In this document: in pieces, positions 2,379 through 10,330 of the stretch
How positions within the stretch are numbered: position 1 is the stretch's first letter
How the letters are laid out: every line of letters starts with the position of its first letter
Assembly: GCA_021841985.1 (NCBI GenBank)
Contig: JAKCCP010000414.1
Span: 1-10,502 of the forward strand
Length of the DNA stretch: 10,502 bases
From: Pseudomonadota bacterium
GTDB lineage: Bacteria; Pseudomonadota; Alphaproteobacteria; Acetobacterales; Acetobacteraceae
Direction of reading: 5' to 3'
Program-made: the position numbers and the translations under genes
The notes under the pieces: model-generated
What the model was told of the DNA's origin: nothing
The model's database searches: none
What the model saw: only the letters and a program-made list of their open reading frames with translations

Positions 2379-3113
2379 ATGACCGCGATGATGAGCCCTG
2401 CTGATCTGGAGCGCGCGCTCCGCAAGATCGGCGAGGAACGCTATCACAATCTCCACCCGTTCCACAAAATGCTGCATGGCGGGCGGATGAATTTCGGCCA
2501 GGTGCAGGCCTGGGCGCTGAACCGCTACGTCTATCAGGCGGCGATTCCGAGGAAGGACGCGGCGCTGATGGCGAGGCTCGAGGATCGCGCGTTGCGGCGC
2601 GAATGGATCCATCGCATTCATGACCATGACGGCATTGATGCCGATAGCGGCGGCATCGAGCGCTGGCTCAGGCTCACCGACGGGCTGAAGCTCGGCCGCG
2701 CCTATGTCATCTCGCAGGAAGGCGCGCTGCCGGCGACCAAATTCGCGGTCGAAGCCTATGTCCGCTTCGTCTATGAACGCCCGACGCTGGAAGCCATCGC
2801 GTCCTCGCTGACCGAACTCTTCGCGCCGGCGATCCATGCCGAGCGCATCGCCGGCATGCTGGAACACTATGATTTCATCAGCGACGATCTCGTCGCCTAT
2901 TTCAGGAAGCGCCTGGATCAGGCGCCGCGCGATTGCCGCTTCGCCCTCGCCTATGTCCAGGAACATGCGCGCACGCCCGAGCAACAGGCGGCGGTTCTGG
3001 CGGCGCTGCGTTTCAAGACCGATGTCTTGTGGGCGCAGCTCGATGCGCTCTATTTCGCCTATGTCGAGCCGGGTTTCATTCCGCCCGGCGCGTTCCGCCC
3101 GGACGTTGGGTGA
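2379..3113 (+). CDS. pqqC: PqqC, pyrroloquinoline-quinone synthase
   Basis: PqqC carries out the last step of PQQ synthesis: ring closure and eight-electron oxidation of the precursor AHQQ with molecular oxygen, without metal or cofactor. The 244-residue product has the usual PqqC length and the all-helical TenA/PqqC fold signature. Residues known from the Klebsiella enzyme are present, shifted by one: H83 in DHDG, Y127, E146 and H153-R156 in SLTELFAPAIHAER, Y174 and R178 in AYFRKRL, and K213 in FKTDVLW. A catalytically competent PqqC is therefore likely, not merely a relative such as CADD or TenA. No pqqA, B, D or E flanks it: upstream is an Smr gene and downstream a convergent cupin gene. 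The FNR-type box in its promoter region suggests oxygen-linked control. The other pqq genes presumably lie elsewhere; if they are absent, this would be a repurposed paralogue. Confidence 0.9.
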   Translation: MTAMMSPADLERALRKIGEERYHNLHPFHKMLHGGRMNFGQVQAWALNRYVYQAAIPRKDAALMARLEDRALRREWIHRIHDHDGIDADSGGIERWLRLTDGLKLGRAYVISQEGALPATKFAVEAYVRFVYERPTLEAIASSLTELFAPAIHAERIAGMLEHYDFISDDLVAYFRKRLDQAPRDCRFALAYVQEHARTPEQQAAVLAALRFKTDVLWAQLDALYFAYVEPGFIPPGAFRPDVG

Positions 3114-3154
3114 TCGAGCGGTTGACCCGCTTCGCGGTTCAATTCGCTCGGATC
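3112..3154. terminator. hairpin between the convergent pqqC and cupin stop codons
   Basis: An imperfect inverted repeat of about 20 bases per arm spans the space between the pqqC stop (3111-3113) and the cupin stop (3153-3155 on the other strand). The inner stem is CCGC-TTC-GCGG (3127-3137); the outer parts pair TTGA with TTCAA, GAGCG with CGCTC, and GATC with GATC, with a few mismatches or bulges. No long T-run flanks it, but its position suits a bidirectional terminator serving both convergent genes. Confidence 0.55.
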
Positions 3155-3656
3155 AACCGCAATCGCCGTCCCCGCGACCATCGAGAAACGCGGCGATCCC
3201 TGGGTTGCGGCGGAGTGTTGCGAGGTCGGCGGCGCTCGGGAGAAGCGGCTTGTCGCGCACCGCGTTCACCAGGCAGAGGAAGCCGAGCGGCGCATCGGGG
3301 GCGGCGCGGAACTGGTGCCAGGTCCAGCCCGGGATCGACACCAGATCGAAGGGACGGACCTCCGCGACCGCGTCCCCGACCAGCGCCCGGCCGCGCCCGC
3401 TGAGGATCATCACCGCATGCGCGTGCTCATGCCGCTCCAGCGTCGAATACCCGCCCGGCGCGACCTCGAAATAGCGCCATTCGGCGGCGAGTTCGGGGGT
3501 GTGGAACAGCACTTGCCGCGTCACCGCGCGAAACGGCGTCGTCTCGTCCTCCTTGTAGGCGAGGAGCGGCACCGCCGACCAGCGGAGGCCACCGCGAGCG
3601 AGCGGGTCGGCGCCGGTTGCGGCGGCGCGAAACGCCGGCGGGGGGCGATCAGACAT
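3153..3656 (-). CDS. cupin protein, probable methylthioxylulose-5-phosphate methylsulfurylase
   Basis: This is a single-domain cupin of 167 residues. Cupin motif 1 is GGYSTLERHEHAHAVMILSG (residues 68-87) with candidate metal ligands H76, H78 and possibly H80. Motif 2 is RPFDLVSIPGWTWHQF (101-116) with H114. It starts at the ATG at 3656, which overlaps the end of the upstream RuBisCO-like gene by eight bases, so the two are co-translated. In Rhodospirillum rubrum a cupin encoded close to an RLP removes methanethiol from 1-methylthioxylulose-5-phosphate to yield 1-deoxyxylulose-5-phosphate, the isoprenoid precursor. The pairing and size make that function the best guess, but cupins are diverse and the sequence alone does not prove it. 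The usual motif-1 glutamate is not obvious; the extra histidine may replace it. Confidence 0.75.
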   Translation of the reverse strand: MSDRPPPAFRAAATGADPLARGGLRWSAVPLLAYKEDETTPFRAVTRQVLFHTPELAAEWRYFEVAPGGYSTLERHEHAHAVMILSGRGRALVGDAVAEVRPFDLVSIPGWTWHQFRAAPDAPLGFLCLVNAVRDKPLLPSAADLATLRRNPGIAAFLDGRGDGDCG

Positions 3657-4764
3657 CGGAACTCTCCGCGACTTGGCGCACGAAGGCGCTGGTTTCCGTG
3701 ACCATGGACGCGCCGGCGGCGAGCAGCGCGCCGCCGATCAGCAGCATGGTGTCGCGGCCATAAAACGCCAGCATCTCGGGAACCCGCGCCGGAATCATGC
3801 CACCCGCCGGCACCGGCAGCGCCGGCGCGAGGCCGGCCCAGGGCGCCCGCGCCGTCTCGGCGATGGCGCGGCAGGTCTCCGGCGTATAGCCGAACCGCCC
3901 GCCATGATGGGGATAGATCACGGCGTCGGCCCCGAACAAGCGGAACAGCTTGCCATAGAGCAGCGCCGGCGCGATGCGTCCCGCCCCGGCCAGGGCGGGG
4001 TGGGCGAGAAACGCGAGATCGGGATTTTCCCGCACGATCGTCTGAAAGGCCGGCAAACCGACCACCAGGGGCGCGATCAGGACGGTGTCGACCCCGGCGC
4101 CACGCGCCGCGTCGATCTGGCGGCGGAGATCATCGAGCGAGCCCGAGAGATTGGGCGCATAGCAGGTCGGATGGCCGGTTTTCGCCCGCGCCTCGCGGAT
4201 CGCCCCGGCGCAGGCCCGCACCCGTTCGGCGAACGGGGCATAGGGCTGATCGGCGATGCCGTGATCATCCTTGATCATGTCGATGCCGCCAAGCGCGAGG
4301 CGCCCGGCGAGCGCGGCCAGCGCCGCCGGCCCCAGACCCTGCGGCTTCAGCGCGGCACAGGTCAACGCCCGCGCTGAAGCCCCGAGGCGCCGGCGCAGCC
4401 CGGCGATCCCGTGACGCGGCCCCCCGAAGTCATTGGCGAAACCGGCCGGCAAAGCGATATCCCAGAGCACGACGTCATCGTGGATCGAGGAATTGCCGAA
4501 CAGCATGTTCAGCATCTGCCCGGCCTCGCCGCCGCGCTGGCCGAGCATCGTCGCCGCCGCCAGCGCAATGCCGACCTCGAACACGCCGCCGCCGCGCTCC
4601 GCGATCGTTGCGACCTGCCCGACGATGCCCTCCAAAACCTGCCGCTCGTTGATCGCCGCGAGCGGCATTTCGACGCTCTGCTCGACAGCGAGGGCGGCGG
4701 CACGTTCCTTGATCGTCGCCGCCTCGCCTCGCACCCGGTAGGTCACCAGGACGCGCTGGTCCAT
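3649..4764 (-). CDS. RuBisCO-like protein (form IV), probable 5-methylthioribulose-1-phosphate isomerase
   Basis: This is a form IV RuBisCO-like protein of 371 residues, not a CO2-fixing enzyme. Aligned by eye to RuBisCO, K140 in ALKPQGLG matches K175, K165-D166-D167 in MIKDDHGIADQ match the carbamylated K201 region, H255 matches H294, K272 in YGKLFRLFG matches loop-6 K334, and the phosphate sites appear as AGG (320-322) and IGG (343-345). Changed positions are Q142 for K177, H168 for E204, P256 for R295 and A320 for S379, as expected of an RLP. In R. rubrum such a protein isomerises 5-methylthioribulose-1-phosphate in methylthioadenosine salvage; in Bacillus the related MtnW is an enolase. 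The cupin partner favours the isomerase. The start at 4764 (MDQRVLVTYR) is preferred because GGAGG at 4776-4780 is 11 bases away; the ATG at 4773 is too close. Longer versions to 4992 run into the DUF2336 gene. Confidence 0.85.
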   Translation of the reverse strand: MDQRVLVTYRVRGEAATIKERAAALAVEQSVEMPLAAINERQVLEGIVGQVATIAERGGGVFEVGIALAAATMLGQRGGEAGQMLNMLFGNSSIHDDVVLWDIALPAGFANDFGGPRHGIAGLRRRLGASARALTCAALKPQGLGPAALAALAGRLALGGIDMIKDDHGIADQPYAPFAERVRACAGAIREARAKTGHPTCYAPNLSGSLDDLRRQIDAARGAGVDTVLIAPLVVGLPAFQTIVRENPDLAFLAHPALAGAGRIAPALLYGKLFRLFGADAVIYPHHGGRFGYTPETCRAIAETARAPWAGLAPALPVPAGGMIPARVPEMLAFYGRDTMLLIGGALLAAGASMVTETSAFVRQVAESSDV

Positions 4765-4775
4765 CGCTGTCATGT

Positions 4776-4780
4776 CCTCC
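4776..4780 (-). promoter_or_regulatory. ribosome binding site deciding the RLP start
   Basis: On the minus strand GGAGG precedes the RLP gene. It is 11 bases from the ATG at 4764 and only two from the ATG at 4773, which is why the shorter protein is preferred. Confidence 0.55.
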
Positions 4781-4824
4781 GCTTGCCGCCGCCGTTCTGA
4801 CCCGGCGGCGGCGCGGACGCAAGC
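4781..4824 (-). other. strong GC hairpin between DUF2336 and RLP genes
   Basis: A perfect 9-bp stem, CCGCCGCCG (4786-4794) with CGGCGGCGG (4803-4811), closes an 8-base loop. It is flanked by a second pairing block, GCTTG (4781-4785) with CAAGC (4820-4824). It fills most of the 65-base gap between the DUF2336 stop and the RLP start and ends right beside the RLP ribosome binding site. No T-run follows in the direction of transcription. It may be a partial terminator, an RNA-processing site, or a structure affecting RLP translation; the sequence does not choose between them. Confidence 0.45.
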
Positions 4825-4829
4825 CGCGC

Positions 4830-6068
4830 TCAGACGACGATATGCGAGAGGAAATCGATCTGCCAGTGCATCTCCTCGGCGGTGAGCGGAAAGCCGCCGC
4901 CCGGCTTGGGCGACAGCAGGCTGGCCGGCGGGAGATCGCAGAGCAGGGTTTGCAGCAACACCGCGACCTGCATCGAGAACCCGGATTTCCACACCAGGCT
5001 GACCAGGCCCTTGGCGTGGCGGAGGCGCCGGGCACGCTCGATCAGGGAAGCCGGCACCTCGGCGGCGACGGCGAGAATGGCGATGCAGCGGAAAATATCG
5101 CCGTTCCGCACGCAGGCGAGGAGGAGCGACTCATCGAGCCGGGTTTCGGCGTTCCGCGCCCGCGCCCAGGCGAGCGCGGCTTCGAGATCGGGCGGAACTT
5201 CCGCGGCGCCGGGCTTCTCGGGCGCGCCGATCCGCGCGGCAAGGCGCTGGCGAAGGAGGGTGATCGCCTCGACCGGCAGATCGGCGCGGCGGGTCAATTC
5301 GCCGAGAAGATCGGTCGCGACGATTTCAGCCAGCGCGCGGGCCGCTTTCGCGGTCAGCGCCGGGCGGCGGACCAGCGGCGCGTGCCAGCGCGGCTCGCCC
5401 TCGGCGCGGGCGATGAGCGCGTCGAGTGTCGCCTCGCGGATTTGCGCCCGGGGGTTTTCGAGCAGGATCTGGATCGCCTGATTGTCGCTGCTGGCGGCGA
5501 TCGCTTCGGCGACCGCGGCCGGGACGAAAGCGCGGCGGGCGATGGTGCTGGCGGTGCCGCTATGCGGCGGATCGGCGAGCAGCGCCAGCAGATCCTCGCT
5601 CTCGAGCAGCGGCGAGAAGCGCAGGATCGGCACGCTGACGATGCTGGTCGCATCGCGCGCGAGGCGGAGCACCAGCGCCGGCGGCACGTTCGGGAGTTCC
5701 TTGATCATCTCCGCGATGGTCGCGCGCACCCGCACCGCTTCATCGGCGACGAGATTGGCCAGGGTCTGATAGGCCTGCTCGCAGAGCCGCGCCTGATCGC
5801 TCGCGCCGAGCAGCGGCACCGAGGTCGCGAGCTTGCGGGCCAGCAGCACCCGCACCCGCTCATCGGTGTCGGCGGCGAGGATCTCGTCCGCCGAGGGCGG
5901 TGTTGCCGGATTGAGCGCGACCGCCGCGCGCACCGTGACCGAGGGGTCGCTCGCCAGGCGTTCGAGCACCGCCGGCGCGGTGCCGCGGCTTGCCCCGCTT
6001 CGCACCCGCGCGGCTTCGTCGGCATCGCCGAGCGGCGCGCCCGGGGCTTCCGCGATCCCGGCCGGCAT
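4830..6068 (-). CDS. DUF2336 helical-repeat protein
   Basis: This 412-residue protein of the DUF2336 family is common in Rhodospirillales and other alphaproteobacteria; its molecular function is not known. It is built of short Leu/Ala-rich helical pairs resembling HEAT repeats, for example VLERLASDPSVTVRAAVALN and similar units repeating through residues 30-250. A charged linker near 280-300 follows, then a conserved-looking C-terminal helical block ending in EEMHWQIDFLSHIVV. No signal peptide or membrane helix is seen, so it is probably a cytoplasmic scaffold. The start is the ATG at 6068, which overlaps the stop of the GGDEF gene by one base (TGATG); a TTG at 6071 just before it is less likely. 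This coupling suggests that it works with, or is made in step with, the diguanylate cyclase. The family call is from memory of its pattern, so moderately sure. Confidence 0.75.
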   Translation of the reverse strand: MPAGIAEAPGAPLGDADEAARVRSGASRGTAPAVLERLASDPSVTVRAAVALNPATPPSADEILAADTDERVRVLLARKLATSVPLLGASDQARLCEQAYQTLANLVADEAVRVRATIAEMIKELPNVPPALVLRLARDATSIVSVPILRFSPLLESEDLLALLADPPHSGTASTIARRAFVPAAVAEAIAASSDNQAIQILLENPRAQIREATLDALIARAEGEPRWHAPLVRRPALTAKAARALAEIVATDLLGELTRRADLPVEAITLLRQRLAARIGAPEKPGAAEVPPDLEAALAWARARNAETRLDESLLLACVRNGDIFRCIAILAVAAEVPASLIERARRLRHAKGLVSLVWKSGFSMQVAVLLQTLLCDLPPASLLSPKPGGGFPLTAEEMHWQIDFLSHIVV

Positions 6069-7534
6069 CAATGCGGGTCCGTCGCGCTGGCGGCGTGCGC
6101 GACCCGCCAGCGGCCGCGCCCGGTGCGTTTGACGTCATACATCGCCTGATCGGCGCGGCGCATGAGATGGTCGAGATCGAGACCCTCGTTCGGCCAGTGC
6201 GTGGCGATGCCGATCGAGAGCGAGATCGGCGCCGCTTCCCCGGCCGCGAGATGGGCAAGCTCGTCGGGGCCGCGCGCGCAGAGCGCCTCGGCGCGCTCGG
6301 AGGCGGAGAATTCATCCGCGCCATCGAGCCAGAGGGCGAATTCATCGCCGCCGAAACGCGCCACGAGATCGGTCGGGCGCACCGTCGCGCGGAGCAATGT
6401 CGCGGTGATGACGAGCGCCTGATCCCCCGCCTCGTGGCCCAGCCGGTCGTTCACCGACTTGAAATTATCGACATCGACGAAGATGATCGTGCCCGGCAGA
6501 CGCTCGCGATCGAGGCGGCCGATGCGCCGTTCGACCTCCTCGACGAAGGCGCGGCGGTTGAAGAGGCCGGTCAGCGGATCGGTGCGGGCCTGGCGGGCCA
6601 TGTCCTGCTGGATGCTTTCCTGCTCGAGCACGAGGCGGAGTATGCCGACCGCGGCGGCCATCACCGCGCAATCCTCGGGCTCCCAGTCACGCCCGGTGAT
6701 GCCGCGCCAGAGCACCACCGCCGCCGCCCCACCGAGGCGCGCGGCGCAGGAACTGACCAACAGACGCTCGCCGAGCGGTCCCGCGACCGGCATCGGCCCG
6801 GCCTGATGCGGCCGGCACAGATGTTCGAGCGCGACCTCGACGAATTCCTCGGGAACGTCCGTCGTCTGGTGGCGCACCGGGTCGGCGCGCCACTCGATGG
6901 TCGCGTCGCGGTGCAGATCGATCACCGCCCCACCCTCCGCGCCGAGCGCGCTGCACAGCGCCCCGAGCCCGGCCCGCGCCATGTTGGTGGCGAGCATTTC
7001 CTGGCGGATATGCCAGAGAATATGGTCGATCACCTCGTTGCGGCGGAGGGCGGTGATGATTTCGCCGCGCCGGTCCTCCTCCTCGGTGATTTCGATGCCG
7101 GAACCGCGCTGGCCGACGATCCGGCCCTCGACATCGGTCATCGGCGTGGTGGTGGCGCGGAGACAGGCGAGCGAGCCATCCTGGCGCCGCAGCCAGACCT
7201 GGCGGCGCTGGCGGATCGCCGCCGGCAGGAACACGTTGTTTTGCGCCGCCGGCTCGGCCAGGATCTCGCTGCCGCTGCGCCCGAGCAGCGCCGGCGCCGG
7301 CCAGCCGAGGACCGGGTCCGGGCCGATGAAGGTGAACCTTCCCGCCATGTCGGTCTCGAACACGAAATCGGCGGTCAGCAGGACGAATTCCCGCCAGCGC
7401 TGGCGGCTGTCGAACAGCGCCGAGCGCAAAGGCTCGATCAGAGGCTCGGCGAATTTACGATCGACCTCGGCCTCCGGCTGGGCAACCCCGGATTGGGACG
7501 CCAGATTCCCGCTCGTCATGTCGCCATCTGCCAT
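6068..7534 (-). CDS. PAS-GAF-GGDEF diguanylate cyclase
   Basis: This sensor enzyme of 488 residues is predicted to make cyclic di-GMP from two GTP. It has an N-terminal PAS-like domain (about 45-150: [19 protein letters not shown] to [12 protein letters not shown]), a GAF-like segment (about 165-310), and a GGDEF domain (about 317-478). The latter has [12 protein letters not shown] (319-330), the metal-binding DVDNFK (354-359), the intact active site RFGGDEF (393-399), and an inhibitory I-site RPTD (386-389) five residues before GGDEF. It is therefore likely active and product-inhibited. No membrane helices or signal peptide are visible, so it senses inside the cell; the ligand is unknown. 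The ATG at 7534 has only a weak upstream purine run; ATG 7519 (MTSGN) is an alternative. It leads a minus-strand group with DUF2336 and, 65 bases further on, the RLP and cupin genes. Confidence 0.93.
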
Positions 7535-7760
7535 CTTCGCTCTCGCTCAAGCTTGCGCGGCAATGAGACACGGGAAGTGTAAATGTGGCGTTACCGCACT
7601 GACGATTTGTCACAAAAATCCGGGAGGCGCGAGCCTCGCTCCGGCCTTGGCGCCGGCCGCGCGCCACCATCTTGCGTCGCCTTGCGTTGACAGTGCCGAG
7701 GGAGGATCGCATGGTCGCGCCGCGCCCGCCGCTTTCACCGCCAAGCCGATAGAGAGCCTC
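7535..7760. other. divergent intergenic region between the GGDEF gene and dapD
   Basis: This 226-base spacer must carry promoters for both the GGDEF gene (minus) and dapD (plus). It holds an AT-richer patch (about 7577-7620) with the 11-base palindrome TTTGTCACAAA (7606-7616), and a TTGACA (7687-7692) that could be a -35 for dapD, although the matching -10 (CATGGT at 7710-7715) is poor. The rest is GC-rich with no recognised motif. No promoter can be named with confidence. Confidence 0.5.
7711..7752 (+). other. possible 13-codon leader ORF upstream of dapD
   Basis: An ATG with a near-ideal ribosome binding site (GGAGG at 7701-7705, five bases away) opens a 13-residue frame, [13 protein letters not shown]. 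It stops at TAG 7750-7752, eight bases before the dapD ATG, and is rich in proline. dapD itself has only a weak purine run in front (AGAGAG). If the TTGACA at 7687 is a real -35 element, transcription would begin too late to include this frame, so the two ideas exclude each other. Speculative. Confidence 0.25.
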
Positions 7761-8600
7761 ATGACCGAAGCGACACTCCGCCCCGCCATCGAGGCGCTCT
7801 GGGAAGCGCGCGAGACCCTTTCCCCCGCGGCCTCCGGCCCGGCGCGCGCCGCCATCGAGGCGGTGCTCGGCGGGCTCGACCGTGGCGAATACCGCGTCGC
7901 GGCGCCGAGCGAGGCCGGTTGGCAGGTCGCGGAATGGCTGAAAAAAGCGGTTCTGCTCTCCTTCCGGATCAACTCTTCGGTCCCGCTTCCCGGCGCCGCC
8001 GGGGCGCCGGTCTTCGACAAGGTCGCGCTCAAGACCGCGGGCTGGGATGCCGAGCGCTTCGCCGCGGCGGGATTCCGCGCCGTCCCCGGCGCGGTGGTGC
8101 GCCATGCCGCCTATATCGCGCCCGGCGTCGTCCTGATGCCCTCCTTCGTCAATGTCGGCGCCTATGTCGGGCGCGGCACCATGGTCGATACCTGGTCGAC
8201 GATCGGGAGCTGCGCGCAGATCGGCGCCAATTGCCATATCAGCGGCGGGGTCGGGATCGGCGGCGTGCTCGAGCCCTTGCAGGCCAATCCGGTGATCATC
8301 GAGGATGATTGCTTCATCGGCGCCCGCTCCGAGGTCGCCGAGGGGGTGATCGTCGAGCGCGGCAGCGTGCTCGCCATGGGCGTCTTTCTCGGCGCCTCGA
8401 CCAGGATCGTCGATCGCGCCAGCGGCGAGGTGTTTTACGGCCGCGTGCCGGCCTATTCGGTGGTGGTGCCGGGGAGCCTCCCGGGCGCGACGCTCGCCGA
8501 TGGCCGGCCCGGCCCCTCGCTCGCCTGCGCGGTGATCGTCAAGCGCGTCGATGCGCGCACGCGGGCCAAGACCGCGATCAACGAATTGCTCCGCGATTGA
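7761..8600 (+). CDS. dapD: 2,3,4,5-tetrahydropyridine-2,6-dicarboxylate N-succinyltransferase
   Basis: DapD transfers succinyl from succinyl-CoA to tetrahydrodipicolinate in the succinylase route to meso-diaminopimelate and lysine. The product is 279 residues, typical for the family (about 274). An N-terminal helical part (1-105, with the conserved LLSFRINSS at 65-73) is followed by a left-handed beta-helix of hexapeptide repeats (about 110-215). This includes [15 protein letters not shown] (141-155, with the conserved Asp of VDTW), [17 protein letters not shown] and [12 protein letters not shown], then the C-terminal segment with [19 protein letters not shown]. The ATG at 7761 matches the family start ([20 protein letters not shown]); the frame is open upstream but carries no family sequence. 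The stop overlaps the TTG start of dapE. It is cytoplasmic, probably a trimer as in other DapD enzymes. Confidence 0.97.
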
Positions 8601-9733
8601 ACCCCGCCGATCCGGAAGCCCTGGCCGCGGCGCTGATCCGCCGCCCCTCCGTCACCCCGCGCGATGCCGGCGCGCAGGACGTGCTGGCGGAGGCGCTGGC
8701 CGGGCTCGGCTTTGCCGTCACCCGGCTGCGTTTCGGCGAGATCGACAATCTCCACGCCCGCATCGGCGCGGGCGCGCCGCATTTCGCCTTTGCCGGCCAT
8801 ACCGACGTGGTGCCGCCCGGGGGCGGCGCCGGCGCGGCTTCGTGGTCGTCCGATCCCTTCGGCGCCATCGCGCGCGAGGGGCTGCTCTATGGCCGGGGCG
8901 CGGTCGACATGAAAGGCGGGATCGCGGCCTTCGTCGCCGCCTGCGCCGATCATCTCGCCGCCGGGCCGCGCCGCGGCACGATCAGCCTCCTGATCACCGG
9001 CGATGAGGAGGGGGTCGCGAAGGACGGCACGGCGCCGCTCATGGCCTGGCTCGCCGAACGCGGCGAGGTGCCCGATTTCTGCCTGGTCGGCGAGCCGACC
9101 TGCCGCGCGCGCCTCGGCGATGTGGTGAAGATCGGACGGCGCGGCAGCATCAACGCCGCGATCACCGTGTTCGGAACGCAAGGCCACGTCGCCTATCCCG
9201 ACCGCGCCGACAACCCCGCGCATCGTCTCGCCCGCGCCCTCGCCGCGCTGATCGCGGCGCCGCTCGATGCCGGAAGCGCCCATTTCGAGCCCTCGTCCTT
9301 GCAAATCACCAGCATCGACATCGGCAATCCGGCCGCCAACGTGATCCCCGCCGAGGCGCGGGCGCGGCTCAATATCCGCTTCAATGACCGCCATACCGGG
9401 GCGGGCCTGGAAGCCTGGCTGCGCGCCACCCTCGCCCAGCACGCCGAGCGCTTCGAGATCGAGACCGCGATCAGCGGCGAGGCCTTCCTGACCGCGCCGG
9501 GACCGGCGTTGGCCCGCCTGGTCGCGGCGATCGCGGCGGAATGCGGCGCCCCGCCGGCGCTGGAAACCGGCGGCGGCACCTCGGATGCGCGGTTCATTTC
9601 CCGCTACTGCCCGGTCGCCGAGTTCGGCCTCGTCGGCGATACCATGCATCAGGTGGATGAACGGGTGGCGATCGCCGATCTCTGGCGGCTGAAGGCGATC
9701 TACGCCCGGATCCTGGCGGATTTCCTGGCATGA
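8597..9733 (+). CDS. dapE: succinyl-diaminopimelate desuccinylase
   Basis: DapE is a two-zinc M20-family hydrolase that removes succinate from N-succinyl-LL-diaminopimelate. The 378-residue product has standard length. All metal and catalytic residues are seen: H68 and D70 in [12 protein letters not shown]104 in [11 protein letters not shown]137-E138 in TGDEE, E166 in VGEPT, and H351 in [18 protein letters not shown] (325-333) is also typical. The start is read as TTG at 8597, overlapping the dapD stop in TTGA. No ATG or GTG lies near the expected N-terminus ([20 protein letters not shown]), and the upstream frame is inside dapD. Its own stop overlaps the next gene (ATGA). A rare start coupled to dapD implies that translation depends on ribosomes finishing dapD. 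dapC-type aminotransferase is not in the window. Confidence 0.96.
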
Positions 9734-10296
9734 ACGCGGGCGTCGCGGCGCTCGCCTCGGGGCTGCGCACCGCCGCCTTGCTGGCTGCCGGCCGGGCGGA
9801 CGGGGTGACCGGGATCGAACCCGGCCTGGCCGGCGCGCGGCGCAGTTTTCTCGCCGCCCCGCTCTCGCTGCCGCTGTTTTTCCTGCTCCGCCTGCTCGAC
9901 TGGTCGGAGGGCGCTCTCCCGCCCCATCCCGGACACGCGGCGGCGCTCGATGTCCTTGGCTTCGTCGCCGGCTGGGCGGGGTTCGCGCTGCTGACCCGGA
10001 AGCTGGTCGCGGCGATCGGACGCGGGCCGCTCTGGCCGCGCTATCTCGCGGTGTGGAACTGGTGCAATTTCGCGCAATACGTGCTGCTCGCCCTCGGCGC
10101 GGTGCCGGAATTTCTCGGCGCGCCGGCGATCATGCAGCAGACCGCGGCGCTGGTGACCTTCGGCTGGGCGATCTGGCTGGAATGGTATGCGACGCGCATG
10201 GCGCTCGCCATCGGCGGGCTGCCGGCGGCCCTCTTCACCCTGCTCGATCTCGCGATCGGCATCGCGCTGGCCGGCCTCGCCGATCTGCTCGCCTGA
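9730..10296 (+). CDS. small integral membrane protein of unknown function
   Basis: This 188-residue protein begins at an ATG overlapping the dapE stop (ATGA), so it is very likely co-translated with dapE. I do not recognise a named family. Hydrophobic stretches near residues 38-56, 73-93, 106-128, 133-152 and 160-186 suggest four or five membrane helices. There is an aromatic, polar-containing segment, VWNWCNFAQYVLLALG (108-123), and a second, GWAIWLEWYATRMALAIGG (145-163), each with charged or amide residues inside a helix that may matter for function. The N-terminal 30 residues are not clearly a signal peptide. Good codon bias and the clean overlap show that it is a real gene. A role tied to lysine or cell-wall precursor supply would be a guess from position only. 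Confidence 0.8.
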   Translation: MNAGVAALASGLRTAALLAAGRADGVTGIEPGLAGARRSFLAAPLSLPLFFLLRLLDWSEGALPPHPGHAAALDVLGFVAGWAGFALLTRKLVAAIGRGPLWPRYLAVWNWCNFAQYVLLALGAVPEFLGAPAIMQQTAALVTFGWAIWLEWYATRMALAIGGLPAALFTLLDLAIGIALAGLADLLA

Positions 10297-10330
10297 TCTC
10301 AGCCGAGGAAAATTGCCGCCCCGAGAAAAC

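Follow-up and report, generated by a model that had tools for sequence, protein, structure and literature searches.

The closest described relatives of the locus reported here are the RuBisCO-like protein (RLP) and the cupin of the 5'-methylthioadenosine (MTA)-isoprenoid shunt in Rhodospirillum rubrum and Rhodopseudomonas palustris. The shunt, both of its enzymes and its occurrence in at least 25 species are already described in the literature (PMC5893883). In R. palustris the isomerase step has been demonstrated in vivo and in vitro for RLP1, while a second, Photo-type protein, RLP2, had no detectable activity on the same substrate (PMC5893883); for the roles of the R. rubrum enzymes we follow the accounts in PMC5893883, PMC4958253 and PMC6302742. 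The R. palustris isomerase yields 1-methylthioxylulose-5-phosphate and the ribulose isomer at about 3:1. In addition, five species lacking Dxs may use the shunt in its place, a possibility raised in PMC10663253. We analysed a stretch of 10,502 nucleotides (nt) from an uncultured proteobacterium (contig JAKCCP010000414.1; hereafter the window), the minus strand of which carries an RLP gene that runs into a small cupin gene. The pair is a new member of this already known shunt, and by sequence comparison and analogy its two genes probably encode steps three and four (we put the probability at about 0.93). The case is built from the placement of both proteins in their families, their conserved residues, the pairing of the genes and the presence or absence of pathway enzymes, and the reactions are carried over from the work on R. 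rubrum and R. palustris.

Family placement of the RLP and the cupin

Two loci are close to the window in DNA sequence. L001 (contig JAJZBV010000008.1, from a proteobacterial metagenome-assembled genome, MAG) is 99.4% identical to it across 10.3 kb, and L002 is 90.8% identical to positions 3169-10306. The synteny with L002 ends at 3169, just within the 3' end of the cupin gene. The features of the pair are as follows.

3649..4773, minus strand: RLP1-type (DeepYkr-like) RLP, predicted 5-methylthioribulose-1-phosphate 1,3-isomerase; 374 amino acids (aa), PF00016 at E 9.9e-25
3153..3656, minus strand: cupin, predicted 1-methylthioxylulose-5-phosphate methylsulfurylase; 167 aa, PF07883 (Cupin_2) at E 2.1e-13
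3649..3656, minus strand: overlap of the cupin start and the RLP stop, 8 nt, ATGTCTGA; kept in L001 and L002
4261..4272, minus strand: KDDH motif of the RLP, K168-D169-D170-H171, aligned with the carbamate lysine and metal ligands
4492..4494, minus strand: Asn94 of the RLP, at the position of MtnW Lys98 in the tree alignment
3417..3431, minus strand: HxHxH of the cupin (H76, H78, H80), putative metal site; invariant in 16/16 rows of alignment A2
3312..3317, minus strand: H114-Q115 of the cupin; invariant in 16/16 rows of A2
3273..3275, minus strand: Cys128 of the cupin; invariant in 16/16 rows of A2

The gene pair and its overlap are real and are not chance open reading frames. L001 and L002 share the 8-nt overlap, and the ratio of non-synonymous to synonymous substitution (dN/dS) against L002 indicates purifying selection on both the RLP gene (0.34) and the cupin gene (0.23). 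Of 7997 candidates scored for the RLP, 5413 match at E 0.001; for the cupin the figure is 6949 of 7513. The original prediction, made from the letters of the stretch, had described an RLP gene overlapping a small cupin gene by eight bases, and this is borne out at 3649-3656 on the minus strand. Its span of 3153..4764, given without a strand, matches the end of the cupin gene and an in-frame ATG at 4764; a longer RLP starting at the ATG at 4773 is possible, and close homologues use both starts.

The RLP was placed in a form IV tree of 26 rows, comprising 19 of the 33 listed RuBisCO-family matches, the window RLP, L179, L180 and four stretches from PDB entries; the transketolase-linked group described below is sampled by three rows only, and MtnW by two structure rows. 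The 14 matches omitted are L172 (a near-identical L001 copy), L167 (an R. rubrum duplicate), L166 and L173 (further RLP1 sequences), L156, L161 and eight additional RuBisCOs (L146-L149, L151, L152, L154 and L157); of these, L172, L166 and L173 have scores resembling those of the RLP1 group. The window RLP falls within an 11-row RLP1 clade (support 96/97) together with L002, the R. rubrum RLP, the R. palustris structure 3qfw and seven others. Sister to this clade are three transketolase-linked RLPs (99/98), the joint clade of 14 rows having support of 100/97, and further outward follow the two MtnW (100/99; joined at 100/98), the Photo group (83/77), the OiaX-like proteins and the true RuBisCOs. 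Its place is beside the proteins of these two species and apart from MtnW, as the original prediction requires. From its position in the tree we infer that 3qfw is the RLP1 of PMC5893883. We assign genome G051 to R. rubrum on the strength of its cupin, a 100% match to a protein named R. rubrum sulfo-lyase; its RLP (Rru_A1998) is 59.4% identical to that of the window over 367 aa.

The best PDB match of the RLP is 3qfw (397.7 bits), with MtnW 2oek at 131.9 bits and the other MtnW structures no higher, and two NCBIfam MtnW models score far below their cut-offs (169.5 bits against 409, and 126.3 bits against 513.6). An AlphaFold model based on the 26-row alignment (predicted local distance difference test score, pLDDT, 93.8) has 3qfw as its closest fold (52% identity, template modelling (TM) scores 0.90/0.95), followed by 4nas (an MtnW by its PDB title), 2oej and 2zvi. 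The residues K168, D169, D170 and H171, which we take from the RuBisCO family to be the carbamate lysine and the metal ligands, are invariant in 26/26 rows of alignment A1, and KDDH is present in all 11 rows of the RLP1 clade. In the tree, His replaces the Glu metal ligand in 14/14 rows of the RLP1 and transketolase-linked groups, whereas the remaining 12 rows keep Glu; the replacement is a mark of the two groups as seen in this tree, not a published definition. The position of MtnW Lys98, presumably the general base of that enzyme, is Lys in the two MtnW rows and Asn in all 14 RLP1 and transketolase-linked rows. Since Asn occurs there in the OiaX-like and RuBisCO rows as well, Asn94 argues against MtnW but is no marker of the RLP1 clade. 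Taken together, these comparisons support the RLP as an RLP1/DeepYkr member of form IV, predicted to be an isomerase.

For the cupin, the best PDB matches are 3jzv (Rru_A2000; 203.9 bits), 3kgz (166) and 3ibm (107.7), all others scoring 27 bits or less. As the original prediction required of a shunt enzyme, the full domain aligns with the R. rubrum methylsulfurylase, with 68% identity over 136 aa and no gap. H76, H78, H80, H114, Q115 and C128 are kept in A2, which consists of 16 hand-chosen sequences of 121 and includes the R. rubrum enzyme.

These placements bear on another reading, that the RLP is an MtnW-type enolase of the oxygen-dependent classical methionine salvage and the cupin an ARD-like dioxygenase. 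MtnW is the next-closest solved group to the RLP at 131.9 bits, and beyond the RLP1 and transketolase-linked groups no clade in the tree lies nearer; ARD, too, is a cupin. However, the RLP groups with RLP1 and lacks both the MtnW K98 and the Glu ligand, and the cupin matches Rru_A2000 at the high score given above, Pfam returning Cupin_2 only and no ARD match.

Methylthioadenosine enzymes in the carrier genomes

Enzymes of the rest of the pathway were inventoried in 15 genomes carrying RLP loci from the set of 80 compared below; the choice took in L001, L002 and a range of both MAGs and isolates. The genes mtnA and mtnP and the O-acetylhomoserine sulfhydrylase gene are each above cut-off in 15/15 of these genomes. 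ARD (mtnD) has no match at E 0.001 in any of the 15; the same search gave matches in 5/14 control genomes, two of them above cut-off. No genome has mtnB above cut-off, and mtnC is above cut-off in 1/15 (the L007 genome), with weak sub-cut-off matches in four and none in the L001 or L002 genomes. The L001 genome, a MAG for which completeness is not given, has no complete classical mtnBCD set. The pattern expected for a shunt carrier, with mtnP and mtnA present, mtnD missing and neither mtnB nor mtnC above cut-off, is therefore found in the two closest genomes. The lack of mtnD in 15/15 genomes and of mtnB above cut-off in any speaks further against the MtnW/ARD reading, which we reject on the tree, the motif and the missing mtnD and regard as scarcely credible.

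Several observations weigh against assigning the pair to the shunt. Weaker, sub-cut-off matches of mtnB type occur in 15/15 genomes, those of the L001 genome being of class II aldolase type, and the inventory stands for the window by way of L001, which matches it at 99.4% of DNA positions across 10.3 kb and whose genome is this MAG with no completeness given. In addition, mtnA and mtnP were found in 0/80 of the flanks searched, so gene linkage lends the pathway no support; in the L001 genome mtnA, mtnP and the RLP gene lie on three separate contigs. The class II aldolase of the L001 genome (L123:1150-1812) is Ald2-like, sharing 50% identity with the gene next to mtnA in R. rubrum, and some flux may therefore enter the dihydroxyacetone phosphate (DHAP) shunt. 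Alternatively, the RLP might serve mainly as a side branch or for detoxification, with most of the 5-methylthioribulose-1-phosphate passing through an Ald2-type aldolase. The Ald2-like gene favours this, as does the operation of both routes in R. palustris (PMC5893883); against it, the gene is unlinked and its specificity putative, and both shunt genes are under purifying selection. We think it improbable, though it is the least improbable of the rival readings weighed here. A second RLP (L159:1486-2739; 3nwr/OiaX-like, scoring under the cut-off for OiaX) is also encoded in the L001 genome, as is a form I-like RuBisCO (L150:1039-2493).

If the pair acts in the MTA-isoprenoid shunt, MTA would first be converted to 5-methylthioribulose-1-phosphate by MtnP and MtnA, whose genes lie elsewhere in the genome. 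The RLP would then carry out a 1,3-proton transfer yielding 1-methylthioxylulose-5-phosphate, using Lys168 (carbamylated by analogy) and the metal ligands Asp170 and His171, and the cupin would transfer the methylthio group onto a thiol, for instance glutathione, and so provide 1-deoxyxylulose-5-phosphate for isoprenoid synthesis. The freed methanethiol could return to methionine via O-acetylhomoserine sulfhydrylase. The most likely net outcome is that a toxic sulfur by-product becomes an isoprenoid building block and reusable methanethiol. This is the route named in the original prediction, and the tree, the cupin alignment and the genome inventory all support it: the RLP does not cluster with MtnW alongside a full mtnBCD set, and the cupin aligns with the R. 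rubrum enzyme.

Pairing, spacing and neighbourhood of the two genes

We compared 80 RLP loci, the best 80 of at least 566 confirmed matches and thus a sample biased to close relatives. A same-strand cupin lies downstream of the RLP in 77 of them. As for the remainder, the sequence of L044 stops 278 nt past the RLP; L059 continues for 691 nt, enough for a cupin, and none was found there; and L047 (9521-12222) has no cupin in the 10 kb downstream of its RLP1-type gene, its neighbour being a convergent PALP-family (cysteine synthase-like) gene. The 77 paired loci, drawn from a one-genome-per-species collection, suggest that the pairing is commoner than the 2018 count of 25 species would indicate (PMC5893883). 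One locus, L079, on a MAG contig titled Klebsiella pneumoniae (a doubtful title), holds an RLP-cupin pair with an RLP 55% identical to that of the window.

Cupin starts were placed by a simple rule in 76 loci and are doubtful in L005, L012, L026, L030 and L058. On this basis the two genes overlap in 26 loci, are 0-60 nt apart in 40 and more than 60 nt apart in 10, and the 8-nt overlap is the commonest single spacing (8/76). The original prediction had read the overlap as a sign of a fixed enzyme ratio, perhaps with channelling of a sulfur-containing intermediate, and one could suppose that within shunt chemistry the overlap was selected for such a ratio or for passing the methylthio intermediate through a complex. 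Its retention in L001 and L002, the 26 overlapping loci and the 40 within 0-60 nt are in keeping with that idea. Against it stand the 10 loci with gaps above 60 nt and the R. rubrum genes, which lie about 0.9 kb apart with an opposite-strand BrnT toxin/BrnA antitoxin pair between them (L144:9069-9618). In R. rubrum the RLP and the cupin are listed with values of 8.13 and 0.96, respectively, for MTA versus sulfate, in units that the extract does not give (PMC4958253); in contrast to these values, PMC5893883 describes the R. rubrum genes as not appreciably regulated by MTA. A R. palustris cupin mutant builds up 1-methylthioxylulose-5-phosphate (PMC5893883), which also speaks against channelling. 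Homologues were listed as the best 120 of the 5413 RLP matches and the best 120 of the 6949 cupin matches; no RLP-cupin fusion was found among the best 120 RLP matches, the longest of which is at most 439 aa and therefore too short for a fusion. With varying spacing, the BrnT/BrnA split and unequal MTA values, we judge both channelling and a fixed ratio to be unsupported and quite unlikely. Translational coupling is plausible in this species; it is not a general property of the RLP-cupin system.

Other genes of the window are listed below.

4830..6071, minus strand: DUF2336/SpbR-like gene (PF10098; NF052659 below cut-off), 56 nt upstream of the RLP gene
6068..7534, minus strand: PAS-GGDEF diguanylate cyclase (PF00990, PAS model TIGR00229), overlapping the DUF2336 gene by 4 nt
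2379-3113, convergent with the cupin gene: pqqC, present in L001 and in no other of the 80 flanks
2-1737, left end of the window: LutB-like iron-sulfur and LutC-like LUD genes of lactate utilisation type, LutB being cut by the edge

The DUF2336 and GGDEF genes are also upstream of the RLP in L001 and L002. Among the other flanks of the 80, many of which are short, no DUF2336 match was found at E 1e-15, and a GGDEF match occurs in three (L052, L061 and L070). It is possible that the DUF2336 gene is an operon partner of the pair, and a four-gene GGDEF-DUF2336-RLP-cupin transcript is likewise possible. The gene order alone also allows that cyclic diguanylate (c-di-GMP) signalling is tied to MTA salvage in this genus. 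A promoter and terminator scan of 2900-7700, with the sigma-70 consensus only, gave nothing between the four genes; its output was a single promoter-like site at 6459-6487 of the plus strand and, ahead of the GGDEF gene, a single terminator-like site at 7637-7624 of the minus strand, a count below the shuffle mean of 2.3. In a search for riboswitches and other RNA elements near the pair, no Rfam match was obtained in the window at gathering scores.

A transketolase-linked sister group and comparison with known systems

The sister clade of RLP1 was found outside the window, on rhizobial, marine and other plasmids. Its RLPs are 35-41% identical to that of the window and sit directly after the C-half of a split transketolase. 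In a set of 24 plasmid records matched by an Agrobacterium RLP at E 1e-30, the C-half adjoins the RLP by coordinates in 22, several of which come from strains of Ensifer adhaerens. A Terrarubrum plasmid record has a cupin in place of the C-half, and for the Shinella zoogloeoides record no C-half is among the 60 of 278 records listed. The neighbourhoods viewed were those of L176, L179 and L180, which are annotated, and L178, which has no annotation. L176 (695-6119) and L180 (624-6044) share the order mtnK, mtnA, thiamine pyrophosphate (TPP) enzyme N-half, C-half and RLP; in L179 (1-6140) the order is mtnA, oxidoreductase, TPP N-half, C-half and RLP. In the flanks of the 80 RLP loci, C-half-like genes were found in three, about 1-2 kb past the cupin (L007:6216-7052, L038:8966-9874 and L046:12868-13776). 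These were rejected as the sister-clade cassette, being only 29-31% identical to its C-halves, on the opposite strand and without an N-half.

We tentatively suggest, while leaning somewhat against it, that the RLPs of both clades belong to one larger group of isomerases, and that different partner enzymes can take over their methylthio-pentulose product interchangeably, a cupin here and a split transketolase-like TPP enzyme in the sister clade. On our inference, the latter enzyme might convert 1-methylthioxylulose-5-phosphate to glyceraldehyde-3-phosphate, while the two-carbon unit bound to TPP would lose methanethiol and end as acetyl phosphate or acetate. If true, this would be an undescribed way of using methylthioribose. 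A search of the open literature found no proposed RLP and transketolase route for methylthioribose; the nearest papers, as far as their extracts go, are on other subjects, namely Calvin-cycle genomes (PMC7895386) and a promiscuous transketolase acting on 5-deoxyribose (PMC8102628).

With the window, an uncultured proteobacterium joins the carriers of an oxygen-independent sulfur salvage predicted to free methanethiol and to feed isoprenoid synthesis. The window pair alone changes little. The sister clade beside its transketolase-like pair would make the function of one RuBisCO-like group directly testable.

Among known systems, R. rubrum (Rru_A1998 RLP, Rru_A2000 cupin) is like the window in strand and gene order, with mtnP and mtnA elsewhere. 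However, its two genes are separated by the gap with BrnT/BrnA instead of overlapping by 8 nt, and its mtnP and mtnA are adjacent, whereas in the L001 genome they are on two different contigs. R. palustris RLP1 (3qfw) is the closest solved RLP by both sequence and fold, and it has the KDDH motif in common with the window RLP. MtnW (2,3-diketo-5-methylthiopentyl-1-phosphate enolase; Geobacillus 2oek, Bacillus 2zvi) shares the RuBisCO fold, the position of the carbamate Lys and a methylthio-sugar phosphate substrate. It differs in being 26-30% identical, in K98, which is Asn in the window RLP, in the Glu ligand, which is His, and in its context, no mtnD having been found in the L001 genome. The transketolase-linked RLPs (L176, L179 and L180) have the His ligand and the Asn at K98 as the window RLP does, the Ponticoccus protein reading K-E-D-H; their partner is a two-subunit TPP enzyme, whereas that of the window RLP is a cupin.

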